DNA of 64,000 nucleotides from Stenotrophomonas sp. ZAC14D1_NAIMI4_1 (GTDB lineage: Bacteria > Pseudomonadota > Gammaproteobacteria > Xanthomonadales > Xanthomonadaceae). The notes beneath the pieces are model-generated. The model worked only from the letters and a program-made list of their open reading frames with translations. It made no database searches and was not told where the DNA came from. The position numbers and the translations under genes are program-made. Shown here piece by piece: positions 3,336 to 56,103 of the stretch. How positions within the stretch are numbered: position 1 is the stretch's first letter; each line of letters begins with the position of its first letter. The stretch covers positions 1,886,407 through 1,950,406 of the forward strand of contig NZ_CP026001.1 in the NCBI RefSeq assembly GCF_003086775.1, written 5' to 3'.

Positions 3336-5225
3336 TCAGGCCGACAGTTCCAGCAGCAGCTTGTTCAGGCGCGCCACGTAGGCACCCGGGTCCTTCAGGC
3401 TGTCACCGGCGGCCAGCGCGGCCTGGTCGAACAGCACCCGGCCCAGGTCGTCGAAGCGCGCGCCGTCGGCTTCCGCATCGAGCTTTGCGATCAGCGGGTG
3501 ACCCGGGTTGATCTCCAGCACCGGCTTGCTGTCGGGCACCTTCTGGCCGCTGGCTTCCAGGATCTGGCGCATCTGCAGCCCCAGGTCCTGTTCGCCGATC
3601 GCCAGCACCGCCGGCGAATCGGTCAGGCGGTGCGAGACGCGCACTTCGGCCACGTCATCGCCCAGCACCGACTTCAGGCGCTCGACCAGGCCCTGCCTGT
3701 CCTTCGCTGCCGCTTCCTGTTCCTGCTTGTCGGCTTCGCTTTCCAGCGCGCCCAGGTCGAGGTCGCCGCGGGCGATGTCGACGAAGCCCTTGCCGTCGAA
3801 ATCGGTCAGGTAGCCCATCAGCCACTCGTCGATGCGGTCGGTCAGCAGCAGCACTTCCACGCCCTTCTTGCGGAACACTTCCAGATGCGGGCTGTTGCGC
3901 ACCTGGCTGTAGCTCTCGCCGGTCAGGTAGTAGATCTTGTCCTGGCCTTCGGCCATGCGGCCGATGTAATCGGCCAGCGACACGGTCTGCGCATCAGCCT
4001 CGCCACGGGTGGAGGCAAAGCGCAGCAGGCCGGCCACCTTCTCGCGGTTGTTGTAGTCCTCAGCCGGGCCTTCCTTCAGCACCTGGCCGAATTCCTTCCA
4101 GAACGTGGCGTACTGCTCCGGCTTGTCGGCGGCCAGCTTCTCCAGCATGTCCAGCGAGCGCTTGGTCAGCGCTGCCTTCATCGAATCGATGACCGGGCCG
4201 GACTGCAGGATCTCGCGCGAGACGTTCAGCGACAGGTCGTTGGAATCGACCACGCCCTTGATGAAGCGCAGGTAGAGCGGCAGGAACTGCTCGGCCTGGT
4301 CCATCACGAACACGCGCTGCACGTACAGCTTCAGGCCCTTGGGCGCATCGCGGTGGTACAGGTCGAACGGCGCGCGGCCGGGCACGAACAGCAGCGAGGT
4401 GTACTCCAGCTTGCCTTCGACCTTGTTGTGGCTCCAGGCCAGCGGGTCGCTGTGGTCGTGCGCCACGTGCTTGTAGAACTCGGTGTACTCGGCGTCGCTG
4501 ATCTCGGTGCGCGGGCGGGTCCACAGCGCGCTGGCGCGGTTGACGGTCTCCCATTCACCGGCAGCGCCTTCTTCGCCTTCCTTCGGCATCTGGATCGGCA
4601 GGCCGATGTGGTCGGAGTACTTCTTGAGGATGCTGCGCAGGCGCCAGCCATCGGCGAAATCATGCTCGCCGTCCTTCAGGTGCAGGACGATGCGGGTGCC
4701 GCGCTCGGCCTTGTCGACGGTGGCCACGTCGAAGTCGCCTTCGCCGCGCGAGGTCCAGCGCACGCCTTCGCCTGCAGCCAGCCCGGCGCGGCGCGAGGTC
4801 ACTTCCACTTCGTCGGCGACGATGAAGGCGCTGTAGAAGCCGACGCCGAACTGGCCGATCAGCTGCGAATCCTTCTTCTGGTCGCCGGACAGCTGGCGCA
4901 GGAAATCGCCGGTGCCTGATTTTGCAATCGTGCCGAGGTGGGCGATGGCTTCGGCGCGGCTCATGCCGATGCCGTTGTCTTCGATGGTGATGGTGTGGGC
5001 GGCGGCGTCGAAGCTGACGCGCACGCGCAGCTCGCTGTCGCCTTCCAGCAGGGCGGGCTGGGTCAGGGCTTCGAAGCGCAGCTTGTCGGCGGCGTCGGCG
5101 GCATTGGAGACCAGTTCGCGGAGGAAGATTTCCTTGTTGGAGTACAGCGAGTGGATCATCAGCTGCAGCAGCTGCTTGACCTCGGTCTGGAAGCCAAGGG
5201 TTTCGGTCTGGGGGGTCTCGGTCAT
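3336..5225 (-). CDS. htpG: Molecular chaperone HtpG (Hsp90)
   Basis: A 629-residue cytosolic ATP-dependent chaperone. The N-terminal GHKL ATPase shows [22 protein letters not shown] and [11 protein letters not shown], followed by the middle domain (NVSREILQ) and the C-terminal dimerisation domain. The start is the ATG at 5225 ([20 protein letters not shown]), which aligns with family members. The open frame continues 160 codons upstream, but those codons run through palindromic repeats and are not coding. The upstream region is a 620-bp repeat composite, so the promoter must lie in the short unique stretch next to the start or inside the repeats. Confidence 0.97.
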
Positions 5226-5400
5226 CGATAGGGCTCCGTGTGCAATGCCGCGCCAGCGCGTGCGGCCTGGCCAAGGGGTATGGCTGATTGTCCCGAAATC
5301 AAGGGGTTGGTCGGGCAGGGCTGCGCCCTGCACCCGCCGGTAGTGCCGGCCGCTGGCCGGCAGCCTTAGAGTCAAAAGCCAGAGCGGCATTCCGTGGGAT

Positions 5401-5502
5401 GGCGGGGCACTGTGGGTTCGCGGGGACGCCGTGAACCCGTCCATGGGGGCTTGGTCGCCGCATCCATGCGGCTCACACCCCGCGAACCCACAGTGCCCCG
5501 CC
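5401..5502 (+). repeat. Structured hairpin element, copy A
   Basis: Arms 5401-5425 and 5478-5502 are a perfect 25-bp inverted repeat around a 52-nt loop. The outer seven pairs (GGCGGGG/CCCCGCC) are shared with the other copies, while the inner arm CACTGTGGGTTCGCGGGG is unique to this copy. The loop holds two mini-hairpins, CCC-GTCCAT-GGG and GCCGC-ATCCAT-GCGGC. Flanks are AGAGCGGCATTCCGTGGGAT on the left and TTCGACAG on the right. Confidence 0.85.
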
Positions 5503-5756
5503 TTCGACAGGTTCACGCGGCTGATGGAACCTGCTGTTGGTGGGTGCCGACCGTTGGTCGGCACATCTGTCAGATATCGAATGAATTCATCCACGCATGG
5601 CGTGGATCTACTGGCAACGGCGGCTGTTGGTAGGTGTCGACCTTGGTCGACACGATTTTCCATAAGACATCGATATCCAACCCAGTGCCGACCAACGGTC
5701 GGCACCCACCAACAGCAGCGTCATGCAGTTCCGACAGATCGCAGCCAACTGTCGAA

Positions 5757-5858
5757 GGCGGGGGGGGGCCGGTTGAGGGGGTGTGAGCGCCATGGATGGC
5801 GCGACCAAGCCCCCATGGATGGGTTTACGGCGTCCCCCTCAACCGGACCCACCCCGCC
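5757..5858 (-). repeat. Structured hairpin element, copy B (inverted relative to A)
   Basis: Read on the - strand, this copy has the same layout as copy A: 25-bp arms (23 of 25 complementary), a 52-nt loop, left flank CCGTGGGAT and right flank TTCGACAG. The inner arm is TGGGTCCGGTTGAGGGGG, different from A and identical to copy D. Loop mini-hairpins are CCC-ATCCAT-GGG and GCGCC-ATCCAT-GGCGC. Confidence 0.85.
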
Positions 5859-5989: not shown

Positions 5990-7104
<1,115 letters not shown>

Positions 7105-10836: not shown

Positions 10837-11052
10837 GCAGGGCTTGCAGCCCTGCACCTGCAGAGGCCGAAGCAAGATCAAGAGCGGCATTCCGTGGGTT
10901 GGCGGGGCGGTGTCGGATTGCGGGGACGCCGCAAGTACGTCCGTGTAGGCTTGGCCGCCGCATCCATGCGGCGGACACCCCGCAATCCGACACCGCCCCA
11001 CCTTCGACAGGTTCACGCGGCTGTTGGTGGGTGCCGACCGTTGGTCGGCACA
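10837..11052 (+). repeat. Half-copy of the composite repeat element
   Basis: It starts with the terminal palindrome GCAGGGCTTGCAGCCCTGC (10837-10855), continues through the conserved AGAGCGGCATTCCGTGGG flank and structured element C (10901-11002), then TTCGACAG and a SMAG-like GTGGGTGCCGACC palindrome ending near 11052. This is the left half of the composite seen complete at 54594-55164; the inverted right half is absent. It fills most of the 281-bp gap between the MBL-fold and psiF-like genes. Confidence 0.75.
10901..11002 (+). repeat. Structured hairpin element, copy C
   Basis: Arms 10901-10925 and 10978-11002 are complementary at 24 of 25 positions around a 52-nt loop. The inner arm CGGTGTCGGATTGCGGGG differs from copies A, B, D and E. 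Loop mini-hairpins are TAC-GTCCGT-GTA and GCCGC-ATCCAT-GCGGC. Confidence 0.85.
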
Positions 11053-39715: not shown

Positions 39716-40108
39716 TGGTGGAGGTGGGCGGAATTGAACCGCCGTCCGAAGGCACTCCATCCCCAGCACTACATGCTTAGCTCACCGTTGAATCTCATCC
39801 CCGAGCAGCACGGTGTGCAAAGCGCACCCGGGAACCAGCCTGTTTTGTTCTAGTGCCGGACTGACAGGCAGCCGCCCAGCGCGATTCCATGATAATGACT
39901 CTACGCTGCGAGCATGGACACAAGCAGTTTCGAGGCTCCGCCTAAGTCGGCAGAAGGTCACGCACCGCAGTTTTTAGGCTGCGAGAGCGACCGGAGCGTA
40001 GTTGTCGTCGTTGGCAACTAGAGTTTTGCAGCTGGATTTACGAGGACAGCTACCCCCTCGGCATGCGCCAGGCGACTTCACAACCCCCGTCGAAACCAAT
40101 GCACCCCC
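39716..40108 (-). ncRNA. ssrA: tmRNA (transfer-messenger RNA)
   Basis: A one-piece tmRNA of about 393 nt that rescues stalled ribosomes. The 5' acceptor strand GGGGGTG (ending at 40108) pairs with CACCTCC before the 3' A-CCA (39716). The 5' region reads GCATTGGTTTCGACGGGGG, the hallmark tmRNA start. The T arm is GGCGG-TTCAATT-CCGCC. The tag frame is annotated separately. The terminator lies just downstream. smpB, its protein partner, is on the same strand 0.9 kb upstream. Confidence 0.97.
39974..40015 (-). other. ssrA: tmRNA proteolysis-tag reading frame
   Basis: The resume codon GCC begins a 13-residue tag ANDDNYAPVALAA followed by TAA. The ending ALAA is the ClpXP recognition type, and the start AND(D/E)NY matches the gammaproteobacterial consensus. 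Confidence 0.93.
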
Positions 40109-53380: not shown

Positions 53381-54580
53381 ATGTCCAGCCTGGCTACACC
53401 CGCCCCCACCGCCCGCAGCTCGACCCGCGGCGTGCTGGCGGCGATTTCCACCTCCCACATGGTCAACGACATGATGCAGTCGCTGATCCTGGCCATCTAT
53501 CCGGTGATCAAGGGAGGCTTCAACCTCAGCTTCACCCAGATCGGCCTGATCACGCTGACCTACCAGCTGACCGCTTCGATCTTCCAACCGCTGGTCGGCC
53601 TGGTCACTGACCGCAAGCCGGCACCGTACTCGCTGCCGATCGGCATGGCCTCGACCCTGTGCGGCATGCTGCTGCTCGGCTTCGCACCGAACTACGCCAT
53701 GGTGCTGCTGGCCGCGGCCATGGTCGGCATCGGTTCTGCCATCTTCCACCCGGAAGCCTCGCGCATCGCGCGGCTGGCCTCTGGCGGTCGCCACGGTTTT
53801 GCCCAGTCGGTGTTCCAGGTCGGCGGCAACTTTGGTACCGCGCTGGGCCCGCTGATCGCTGCGGCGGTGATCGTGCCGTTCGGCCAGCACGCTGCGTCGT
53901 GGTTTGCCGGCGCCGCGCTGATCGGCATCGCCCTGCTGACCTATGTCAGCCGCTGGTATGCGCTGCATCTGGGCGCCCCGCGCCCGGTCGGGCAGGCCAC
54001 GGTCGCCCCGCGTCATCCGACCCGCACCGTGGCCCGGGTGATGGCGATCCTGCTGGTGCTGATCTTCAGCAAGTACTTCTACATGGCCAGCATCGGCAGC
54101 TACTTCACCTTCTACCTGATCCACCATTTCGGCATTCCGGTGGCGCAGGCCCAGCTGCACCTGTTCGCGTTCCTGGTGGCGTCGGCGGCCGGTGGCTTCC
54201 TCGGTGGCCCGCTGGGCGACCGCATCGGCCGCAAGCCGATCATCTGGACCTCGATCCTGGGCGTGGCGCCGTTCGCGCTGGCGCTGCCGCATGCGGATCT
54301 GTTCTGGACGACGGTGTTGGCGGTGCTGATCGGCTTCGTGCTGTCGTCGGCGTTTTCGGCCATCGTGGTGTACGCGCAGGAGATGATGCCGCACCGCATC
54401 GGCATGGTGTCGGGGCTGTTCTTCGGCTTCGCGTTCGGCATGGGCGGGTTGGGTGCGGCGGTTCTAGGCCTGCTGGCGGACAAGACGAGCATCGAGTACG
54501 TGTACCAGCTGACCGCGTTCCTGCCGCTGCTGGGCATCATTGCCGCCTGGCTGCCGCCGTCGCGTCCTGCTGCTCACTGA
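53381..54580 (+). CDS. MFS transporter of the fosmidomycin-resistance (Fsr) family
   Basis: A 399-residue protein with 12 predicted membrane segments. The Fsr-type N-terminus is STSHMVNDMMQSLILAIYPVIKGGFNLSFTQIGLITLTYQLTASIFQPLVGLVTDRKPAPYSLPIGM, with GGFLGGPLGDRIGRKPIIW at the mid-loop and PHRIGMVSGLFFGFAFGMGGLGAAVLGLLADKTSIEYVY near the end. E. coli Fsr exports fosmidomycin; the natural substrate is unknown. The divergent AraC regulator suggests inducible expression. Confidence 0.93.
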   Translation: MSSLATPAPTARSSTRGVLAAISTSHMVNDMMQSLILAIYPVIKGGFNLSFTQIGLITLTYQLTASIFQPLVGLVTDRKPAPYSLPIGMASTLCGMLLLGFAPNYAMVLLAAAMVGIGSAIFHPEASRIARLASGGRHGFAQSVFQVGGNFGTALGPLIAAAVIVPFGQHAASWFAGAALIGIALLTYVSRWYALHLGAPRPVGQATVAPRHPTRTVARVMAILLVLIFSKYFYMASIGSYFTFYLIHHFGIPVAQAQLHLFAFLVASAAGGFLGGPLGDRIGRKPIIWTSILGVAPFALALPHADLFWTTVLAVLIGFVLSSAFSAIVVYAQEMMPHRIGMVSGLFFGFAFGMGGLGAAVLGLLADKTSIEYVYQLTAFLPLLGIIAAWLPPSRPAAH

Positions 54581-54653
54581 GGGGTTTGGGTTTGCAGGGC
54601 TTGCAGCCCTGCACCTGCTCAATGCAACGTCAAATGCGTGCATTCAGTGGGTT

Positions 54654-54755
54654 GGCGGGGTGGGTCCGGTTGAGGGGGACGCTGCAAGTACGTCCATGTA
54701 AGCTCGGTCGCCGCATCCATGCGGCTCACGCCCCCTCAACCGGACCCACCCCACC
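54654..54755 (+). repeat. Structured hairpin element, copy D
   Basis: Arms 54654-54678 and 54731-54755 pair at 24 of 25 positions around a 52-nt loop. The inner arm TGGGTCCGGTTGAGGGGG is identical to copy B, 49 kb away. Loop mini-hairpins are TAC-GTCCAT-GTA and GCCGC-ATCCAT-GCGGC. Confidence 0.85.
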
Positions 54756-54989
54756 TTCGACAGTTTTCCGCGAGCTGTCGAAACGGCGTTCTGCTTTGGT
54801 GGGTGCCGACCGTTGGTCGGCACGGGGTCCGTCGGAATGGCGATCTGCTGGGGTAGGTGTCGACCTTGGTCGACGAAGTAGATCCACGCCATGCGTGGAT
54901 GAATTCATTCGATATCTGACAGTTGTGCCGACCAACGGTCGGCACCCACCAACAGCTGCATTTACCAACAGCCGCGGGAAACTGACAGA

Positions 54990-55093
54990 GGTGGGGCGGT
55001 GTGGGTGGGCAGGACCGTTGGCGCCATGGATGGCGCCATCGAGCCCCCATGGATGGGTTTACGGCGTGTCCTGACCACCCACACCGCCCCGCC
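54990..55093 (-). repeat. Structured hairpin element, copy E (inverted relative to D)
   Basis: Arms 54990-55015 and 55068-55093 (26 nt) pair with one wobble and one mismatch around a 52-nt loop. On the - strand the inner arm is CGGTGTGGGTGGTCAGGAC, unlike any other copy. Loop mini-hairpins are CCC-ATCCAT-GGG and TGGCGCC-ATCCAT-GGCGCCA. Confidence 0.85.
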
Positions 55094-55194
55094 ATCCCAC
55101 GGAATGCCGCTCTGGCTTTTGCAGTTGACGTTGCATTGAGCAGGTGCAGGGCTGCAAGCCCTGCCGAAAACCCCCTTGGGCGTAGAATGCGGGC

Positions 55195-56103
55195 ATGAGC
55201 GAATCCCTCGACAACCACCTGCTCCACGGCCGTCGCCAGCGCCCCGACGGGCCCTCGCCGATCGATGTCATCTCCGTCCAGTCGCAGCTCGTCTACGGCC
55301 ATGCCGGCAACAGCGCCGCCGTGCCGCCGATGCGCGCCCTCGGCGTGCGCGTGGCGGAAATCCCGACCGTCCTGCTCAGCAATGCGCCGTTCTACGACAC
55401 CACCCGCGGCCGCGTGCTGCCGGCCGACTGGTTCGCCGATCTGCTGCTCGGTACCCGCGAACGCGGCCTGCCGCAGCGCGCGAAGATGCTGGTCTCCGGC
55501 TACTTCGGCAGCGCCGCCAACGGTGCCGCCTTCGCCGACTGGCTGGACGGGATCCTGCCGGCCTGCCCGCAGCTGCGCTACTGCCTGGACCCGGTCATCG
55601 GTGACACCCATACCGGCCCCTACGTGGAACCCGGGCTGGAGGCGATCTTCGCCGAGCGCCTGCTGCCGCACGCCTGGCTGGTCACGCCCAATGCGTTCGA
55701 ACTCAACCGCCTCACGGGCATGCCCGCCCTGGCCGAAGCCGATGCCATCGCCGCTGCGCGCACGCTGCTGGCCCGTGGCCCGCAGTGGGTGATCGCGCAC
55801 AGCGTGGGCGGTACCCCTGGCGAACTGGTGACCCTGGCCGTCGGCCGCGACGAGACCTGGCGCTGGACCTCGCCGCTGCTGCCGGTGGATGTGGCGGGCA
55901 CCGGTGACGTGCTGATGTCGCTGGTGGTGTCCTTCCTGCTGCGTGGCGAGTCGATGCAGCAGGCCATCTCGCGCGCCATCGCCGGCACCCATGCCGCGCT
56001 GGAAGCCACCCTGGCCAACGGCTTCGAGGAGTTCGACGTGATCGCTGCCGCGCCTGCCGCGCTGGCAGAGCCCGCGCGCTTCCATGCCGAACGCGTGGCA
56101 TGA
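55195..56103 (+). CDS. pdxY: Pyridoxal kinase PdxY
   Basis: A 302-residue ribokinase-fold enzyme that phosphorylates pyridoxal in vitamin B6 salvage. Family marks are DVISVQSQLVYGHAGNSAAVPPMRALGVRVAEIPTVLLSNAPFY, MLVSGYFGSAANGAAFADWL, YCLDPVIGDTHTGPYV, LVTPNAFELNRLTG and the catalytic LPVDVAGTGDVLMSLVVSFLLRGE. The stop overlaps the next gene by four bases (ATGA), which couples it to prephenate dehydrogenase. Confidence 0.93.
   Translation: MSESLDNHLLHGRRQRPDGPSPIDVISVQSQLVYGHAGNSAAVPPMRALGVRVAEIPTVLLSNAPFYDTTRGRVLPADWFADLLLGTRERGLPQRAKMLVSGYFGSAANGAAFADWLDGILPACPQLRYCLDPVIGDTHTGPYVEPGLEAIFAERLLPHAWLVTPNAFELNRLTGMPALAEADAIAAARTLLARGPQWVIAHSVGGTPGELVTLAVGRDETWRWTSPLLPVDVAGTGDVLMSLVVSFLLRGESMQQAISRAIAGTHAALEATLANGFEEFDVIAAAPAALAEPARFHAERVA

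Follow-up and report, generated by a model that had tools for sequence, protein, structure and literature searches.

A high-copy hairpin element of Stenotrophomonas related to TwoAYGGAY RNA, and a candidate ligand of CsrA/RsmA

The TwoAYGGAY RNA (Rfam RF01731; Weinberg et al., 2010, PMC2864571) is tabulated by its describers as a probable RNA that is unlikely to be cis-regulatory, and was later matched to the CsrA-binding motif and predicted to bind CsrA (PMC4333381). For CsrA, a consensus from systematic evolution of ligands by exponential enrichment (SELEX) of RUACARGGAUGU is given, RsmE complexes contain an ANGGAN hexaloop with a variable N, and CsrA bridges sites separated by 10–63 nt, best when the distance exceeds 18 (PMC7652899). 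Here we describe a hairpin element with five copies (A to E) in a stretch of 64,000 nucleotides (hereafter the window; positions 1,886,407 to 1,950,406 of contig NZ_CP026001.1, assembly GCF_003086775.1) of Stenotrophomonas sp. ZAC14D1_NAIMI4_1. The element is probably (we would put it at about 60%) a proliferating TwoAYGGAY-related RNA element, predicted to bind CsrA/RsmA and acting on the strand opposite to that on which an earlier note had described it.

On the strand with loops reading AYGGAY, the element was found to consist of a sequence-variable P1 stem of c. 25 bp, a three-way junction and two hairpins with A-N-GGA-Y loops, P2 (which has a 5-nt bulge as well as its CANGGAYG loop) and P3. 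The five window copies, compared with shuffled versions, gave folding z values of −5.3 to −8.7 with DNA parameters and −5.6 to −9.0 with RNA parameters. An alignment of 88 distinct copies from the same genome, with 41 pairs (A3), served to build a covariance model, R1. Its pair cells hold 94.9% standard pairs, compared with 75.8% when shuffled and 42–51% when partners are slid by 1–3 columns, and 660 cells show double-sided changes versus 211 in the shuffles; among the left P1 arms, 41 different sequences were counted, which form 8 loose groups. In a second alignment fitted to the R1 structure (A4; 37 rows from 28 distant loci, six rows being weak reverse-strand matches), double-sided changes occur at 37 of 39 pairs and 96.3% of cells are paired, compared with 38–45% when slid. 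The covariation that the earlier note had read from the arms and mini-hairpins of five copies is strongly supported by both alignments against these controls.

The non-Watson-Crick cells of A3 are unevenly divided between the strands, with 46 G.U and 123 G.A on the AYGGAY strand and 5 of each on the strand of the earlier note. Of the 123 G.A cells, 112 belong to the tandem G.A that 56 of the 88 copies have at the P3 base (the other 32 copies have Watson-Crick pairs there), and the G.U excess is still 25 versus 5 cells once a single pair common to 21 copies is removed. The 31 distant copies (28 genomes, one or two copies each, the six dropped rows of A4 being reverse-strand matches to hairpins already counted) have 15 G.U and 14 G.A on the AYGGAY strand and 3 of each on the other. 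This asymmetry indicates that the best-folding strand reads AYGGAY and not RTCCRT; together with the loop pattern it leads us to favour that strand, most simply as RNA. For single copies, a replication-strand bias (25 vs. 13, p = 0.07) is not claimed.

A search of the 4.70-Mb genome with the loop pattern returned 132 matches (62 forward, 70 reverse), and the reversed-pattern control none, which excludes chance. R1 gave 136 matches at E <= 0.01 (150 candidates scored), five of them in the window, and the total reaches ~143 copies when expanded ones are included. The earlier note had proposed a covariance-model search for further copies in relatives; R1 matches are indeed present in 49 of 61 Stenotrophomonas genomes. 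They were also found in 66 of 369 genomes drawn from the Gammaproteobacteria (the class draw; 58 of 271 genera) and in 29 of 398 genomes of a phylum draw, the own genome being included in all these counts; all 29 belong to the Gammaproteobacteria, the out-of-class share of the 398 not being shown. Because scoring in the two draws was limited to 10 candidates per genome with R1, itself trained on own-genome copies, and to 7 with RF01731, absence is weak evidence. A pattern scan of named genomes yielded at least 118 stretches, and the 80 among the matches listed include Stenotrophomonas, Xanthomonas, Shewanella, Marinobacter, Alteromonas, Vibrio, Halomonas and others, as well as one titled Proteobacteria bacterium; apart from this last, we take all these genera to be Gammaproteobacteria. 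The 98% complete genome G255 had 8 R1 matches among 10 scored candidates and no CsrA match, and three stretches from viral contigs (L379, L380, and L381) carry a double CANGGANG pattern.

The P3 loop is CATGGATG (C-AUGGAU-G as RNA) in all 88 aligned copies, and the P2 loop is C-A-N-GGA-Y-G with N being T in 70, G in 15, A in 2 and C in 1; P2 of many distant copies has UACAGGGAUGUA. In the 121 intact copies of the own genome the C, A, GGA and final G are invariant in both loops. All 121 have two CANGGANG with starts 23 nt apart, leaving 15 nt between the 8-letter sites, as do 29 of 31 distant copies, the other two having each lost one loop. The own-genome loop conservation is partly due to the selection of copies, since that set began from a loop sequence pattern in which G or A at the variable position was admitted only as a mismatch. 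The element thus possesses the C-ANGGAN-G hexaloop hairpins at a bridgeable distance that mark CsrA/RsmA sites, and with starts 23 nt apart a single dimer could bridge both loops. Binding by CsrA/RsmA is, on the evidence of loops and spacing, likely. A CsrA gene (PF02599) was detected in 313 of the 369 class-draw genomes and in 61 of the 66 bearing the element; among near-complete genomes it is present in 55 of 56 with the element and 225 of 258 without (p = 0.015), a difference that genome size may confound.

The RF01731 model matched the own copies with an E value of 0.0047, with 17 own-genome matches at E <= 10, of which the best reached 37.8 bits and none the cut-off of 43 bits. A gathering-threshold Rfam scan of the window reported transfer-messenger RNA (tmRNA) alone and no RF01731. 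Some loci elsewhere pass both models, namely L157 (source genome G406; R1 89.8 bits, RF01731 44.0 bits) and L395, L399, and L400 (genomes G245, G277, and G133; RF01731 55.0, 47.7, and 44.6 bits, R1 71.6, 68.4, and 64.4 bits, respectively). When 12 RF01731 loci, one per genome, were compared, R1 matched the same place in 7 at E < 0.001; RF01731 was found in 30 class-draw genomes, in 15 above its cut-off. The features of RF01731 recur in the element: an AYGGAY hexaloop in P3 of 88/88 copies and, strictly, in P2 of 71/88 (the other 17 being ARGGAY, with G in 15 and A in 2), a weakly conserved closing outer stem, and tandem G.A, which was seen by eye also in L154 and L160. Since the window copies score below the cut-off and the two sets of genomes overlap little, the element was filed as a related branch and not as a member. 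Judged by these scores it is a close relative of TwoAYGGAY, joined to it by the bridging loci. The earlier note, which knew of no published name for the family, had its RTCCRT as AYGGAY backwards, and the name lay on the opposite strand.

Own-genome copies less than 1 kb apart form outward-facing inverted pairs, outward meaning that each partner's AYGGAY strand is read outwards from the centre of the pair. The genome holds 90 clusters, comprising 51 '+-' pairs, one '+--' and 38 single copies, with not one '-+', '++' or '--'. Partners have unlike stems, near-identical arms being found in 1 of 40 intact pairs, whereas shuffling the pairings led to an expectation of 7.3 and in none of 1000 shuffles to so low a count (five interrupted copies left out); for the partner loops, 82 of 1000 shuffles had an alike-count as low, so there is no clear effect. 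At the site of copies D and E, the 19 of 30 relatives' loci (own included) that have both partners show, by eye, one proximal arm type throughout and a distal arm type that varies between species and equals the proximal type in none. With arms so unlike, a pair should not amount to an inverted repeat of 100 bp; that the arms would also keep the partner RNAs separate is doubtful. We have high confidence in the fold, the strand preference, the kinship with TwoAYGGAY and, within the own genome, the pair rule.

Outside the own genome, 100 of the at least 118 stretches (Stenotrophomonas-titled and six unlisted ones left out) were scanned for pairs. Among the matches listed, copies less than 1 kb apart comprised 13 '+-', 5 '-+' (L144, L308, L329, and one each in L331 and L343), 2 '++' (L294 and L340) and 1 '--' (L368). 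Inward pairs thus lie in two Xanthomonas stretches, L308 and L329, and some genera (G602, L331, and L340) have same-strand hairpin arrays or alternation. Twelve hand-picked '+-' pairs (a thirteenth, L297, is cut by a contig end and was left out) have left-arm identities of 0.29–0.67, L361 among them perhaps being Stenotrophomonas. The three RF01731-positive genomes G328, G421, and G218, all of one genus, contain four outward pairs, each combining the same two arm types. Exceptions are an outward pair with like arms ~0.9 kb apart (L406, genome G396), a locus at which no pair was seen (L407, G322), two same-arm copies 0.86 kb apart (L144), and the same-strand array of G602. The pair rule is a new observation, and the layout recurs in other genera with these exceptions; neither the repeat family nor the rule was encountered in the literature searched.

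According to the reading preferred here, the sequence-free P1 of c. 25 bp, the three-way junction and the two C-A-N-G-G-A-N-G hairpins would form a platform for CsrA/RsmA, a single dimer of which would bridge the two loops, 23 nt apart from start to start. The element would multiply within intergenic DNA, often as an outward inverted pair with stems held unlike, and transcribed copies would most probably bind RsmA (CsrA) and serve as dispersed decoys or target tags.

Several results weigh against this reading. The own-genome G.U asymmetry, when counted by pair columns, is only 11 vs. 5 (p = 0.21), and the hexaloop is interrupted in some copies. The link between CsrA and the element has p = 0.06 over all 369 genomes, with no CsrA match in five element-bearing genomes, including one at 98% completeness. 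The 66 R1 genomes and the 30 RF01731 genomes have 8 in common (chance expectation 5.4), and G406, the source of L157, is outside the 30; for the Yersinia small RNA (sRNA) Ysr224, the Rfam model describes the other strand and not the AYGGAY one. Minimum-energy folds of read-through sequences keep both hairpins self-contained on both strands in just 18 of 36 pairs, and the idea that unlike arms guarantee independent folding is only half supported by this count. No sense bias was seen: in the pattern-scan stretches (at least 118), AYGGAY has the sense direction of both neighbours in 20 of the 70 copies whose neighbours were both called, and the antisense direction in 21 (31 further copies lie inside possibly spurious open reading frame calls), and own single copies between same-direction genes were sense in 9 and antisense in 12, some of these singles later proving to be paired with a copy that is expanded or has diverged further. 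A promoter signal between partners was not found in a crude scan.

A wider claim would be that many gammaproteobacterial genomes have become distributed CsrA/RsmA sponges through a self-spreading RNA element, some of these genomes having more than 100 double sites, often as outward pairs with unlike stems. A distributed sponge is possible; the claim in this full form is speculative and we would not expect it to hold. In such a sponge, a transcript starting between partners would carry AYGGAY hairpins only, and read-through from either side would carry one AYGGAY hairpin together with one complementary-loop hairpin. In xanthomonads (no CsrB/RsmZ homologue having been found in Xanthomonas) the dispersed copies could assume the sequestering role.

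Part of the evidence would suit a non-autonomous mobile DNA, similar to miniature inverted-repeat transposable elements (MITEs) or to REPINs formed from repetitive extragenic palindromes (REPs), in which extruded single-strand hairpins would be recognised by a transposase and the loops would serve that enzyme and not CsrA. The high copy number, the inverted pairs and the absent gene-orientation bias all agree with it, and so does presence or absence at orthologous sites. At the site of copy C the hairpin is present in 3 of 30 orthologous loci and a degenerate copy in one, the nearest relative having a different 82-bp spacer (for 4 of the 30, whose right flank could not be located, the scan took in 900 bases). 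At the D/E site both partners are present in 19 of 30 loci, one recognised partner in 8 and none in 3; some one-partner loci are at contig ends or have an expanded partner, and L209, with none, has a 62-bp spacer. However, the loop pattern fits the CsrA consensus, free position included, and Y1 transposases, the only transposase type searched, show little association with the element. Only one of 34 Y1 loci (4 own and 30 from the genus, a subset, most other Y1 matches being unread) had an R1 match, a weak one (E 0.0065), and for these 34 loci the terminal repeats of REP-associated tyrosine transposases (RAYTs) or of the TIRYT type were rejected. When the element together with its flanks was compared with the Y1 loci by blast, the 25 best lines all fell within one flank, the site of short REPs. 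Overall we regard the mobile DNA explanation as unlikely.

In five odd own copies an insertion sequence within the hexaloop was considered and rejected, the inserts being structured loop expansions. Copies with expanded P2 or P3 hexaloops are L019, L036, L041, L062, L073, L075, and L087 in the own genome and L080:1000-1420, L202, L212, L214, L224, and L230 besides. The insert is nearly the same for a given loop in the copies compared, both loops are expanded in L080, L214, and L224, and the P3 insert contains, by eye, further AGGA-loop hairpins on the AYGGAY strand. Short tandem runs of the CAACGG/CAACAG/AACGTC type abut hairpins (L179 and L192 at site C; own flanks) and vary in length between strains.

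The position relative to genes would be compatible with a 3'-end element of the type of REPs and bacterial interspersed mosaic elements (BIMEs), acting as terminator or mRNA stabiliser with no protein partner. The copies are intergenic, and with gene positions from simple custom callers the loop core of the proximal partner mostly begins 98–126 nt past the called stop (12/15 '++' and 7/10 '--' pairs; in convergent pairs, 9/12 left and 8/12 right sides). Divergent intergenic regions are under-used, with 9 of 80 clusters compared with 14 of 55 gene pairs in the window. The absence of bias towards the neighbours' sense strand argues against a simple 3' untranslated region (3'-UTR) role, and such an element would leave unexplained both the strand asymmetry and why A-N-GGA hexaloops should stay nearly invariant, and spaced by 23 nt, from genus to genus, which makes it improbable. 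Copying alone, by template-switch correction between quasi-palindrome arms with no selection on the folded molecule, would account for the near absence of one-sided changes to G.U beside the 660 double-sided cells but not for strand-asymmetric non-Watson-Crick cells, covarying loop mini-hairpins or loop letters conserved across genera, and is very improbable, although such copying may well operate alongside selection.

Within the window, the five hairpins are present where the earlier note had placed them. AYGGAY is on the minus strand in copies A (5401..5502; P2 hexaloop 5439-5444, P3 hexaloop 5462-5467), C (10901..11002; P2 10939-10944, P3 10962-10967), which is single, and D (54654..54755; P2 54692-54697, P3 54715-54720). 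It is on the plus strand in B (5757..5858; P3 5792-5797, P2 5815-5820) and E (54990..55093; P3 55026-55031, P2 55049-55054), whose P3 base consists of Watson-Crick pairs instead of tandem G.A. Since B and E are thus on the minus strand in the orientation of the earlier note, A/B and D/E, each named left partner first, are inverted pairs. The 52-nt loop with two mini-hairpins whose stems change in step was confirmed. The seven outer pairs are there as described, apart from a C.A mismatch (G.U on the other strand) in the outer arm of C, D, and E. Four inner-arm sequences were likewise recovered, one of them common to B and D, but their pairing is imperfect in B (2/18 mismatches) and E (1/19).

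The outward-facing pair A/B (5401..5858), with unlike arms and short REP-type palindromes between the partners, lies between the divergent genes for HSP90 (3336-5225, minus strand) and a PF03602 protein (5990-6568, plus strand). The outward-facing pair D/E (54654..55093), again with unlike arms, is found between a major facilitator superfamily (MFS) gene (53381-54580, plus strand) and a Phos_pyr_kin/PfkB gene (55195-56103, plus strand). A short palindrome of the GCAGGGCT..AGCCCTGC type occurs at the outer side of A, C, D, and E (5314-5331, 10837-10855, 54594-54612, and 55146-55164, respectively), and L209, the D/E-site relative without the pair, retains one such palindrome only. The tmRNA gene (Rfam RF00023) is at 39716-40108 on the minus strand.

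TwoAYGGAY, described in 2010, is still an orphan among candidate RNAs, and the only suggestion of CsrA binding in the literature searched is a computational one. With a relative present in more than 100 copies in the own genome, and with strand evidence, a constant distance between sites and a pair rule to work from, what this RNA does can be tested directly. Should RsmA be bound, a repeat that proliferates would be titrating a global regulator, and differences in copy number between strains would carry regulatory meaning. The pair rule also bears on the persistence of inverted repeats in bacterial chromosomes.

Among known systems, the core of integron attC-like sites is not known to resemble that of the element, no search aimed at it having been made. 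Rfam matches to microRNAs and other non-bacterial families were dismissed as generic long hairpins. The SMAG or GTAG REPs and REPINs are likewise high-copy intergenic palindromes and lie between window partners, but REPs of this kind are described as 20–40 bp long with a GTAG tag (PMC3733652), whereas the element is c. 102 nt, branched, and has unlike arms. The TIRYT terminal inverted repeats of Stenotrophomonas maltophilia are, according to the same text, clustered and self-complementary; however, 15 of 30 testable Stenotrophomonas Y1 loci (L231-L260) are flanked by another self-complementary repeat of the GGGGTCAGATC type. That repeat, of the GGGGTCAGATCCC...GGGCTCTGACCCC type, fits the GGGGWSAS motif of Di Nocera et al. 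(PMC3733652), strain K279a being compared via this motif only.

RsmU of Xanthomonas campestris, likened here by description and not by sequence, is an RsmA-binding RNA with GGA motifs from the same bacterial family, derived from a 3'-UTR, but it is a single locus and is reported as Xanthomonas-only (PMC7694677). Ysr224 (RF02770) has a very similar loop (E 2e-4, 35.3 bits for the best of 16 own-genome loci) and an outer stem unlike that of the element; its cut-off of 70 bits was not reached in these 16 or in 20 loci elsewhere (best 38.0). The CsrB/RsmZ-type sRNAs, which sequester CsrA, share repeated GGA-loop hairpins, but these are single loci with many sites, whereas the element is a dispersed genomic repeat with two sites in each copy. 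TwoAYGGAY itself differs in its second hairpin, which has a 5-nt loop of other sequence in 5 of the 6 best-scoring RF01731 loci folded (L389-L393). It shares with the element the long, weakly conserved outer stem, branched core, GGA-loop hairpins, tandem G.A and multiple copies per genome, as well as the outward inverted pairs of the three RF01731-positive genomes of one genus, and it is placed in Rfam clan CL00106 together with PrrB_RsmZ and rsmX.
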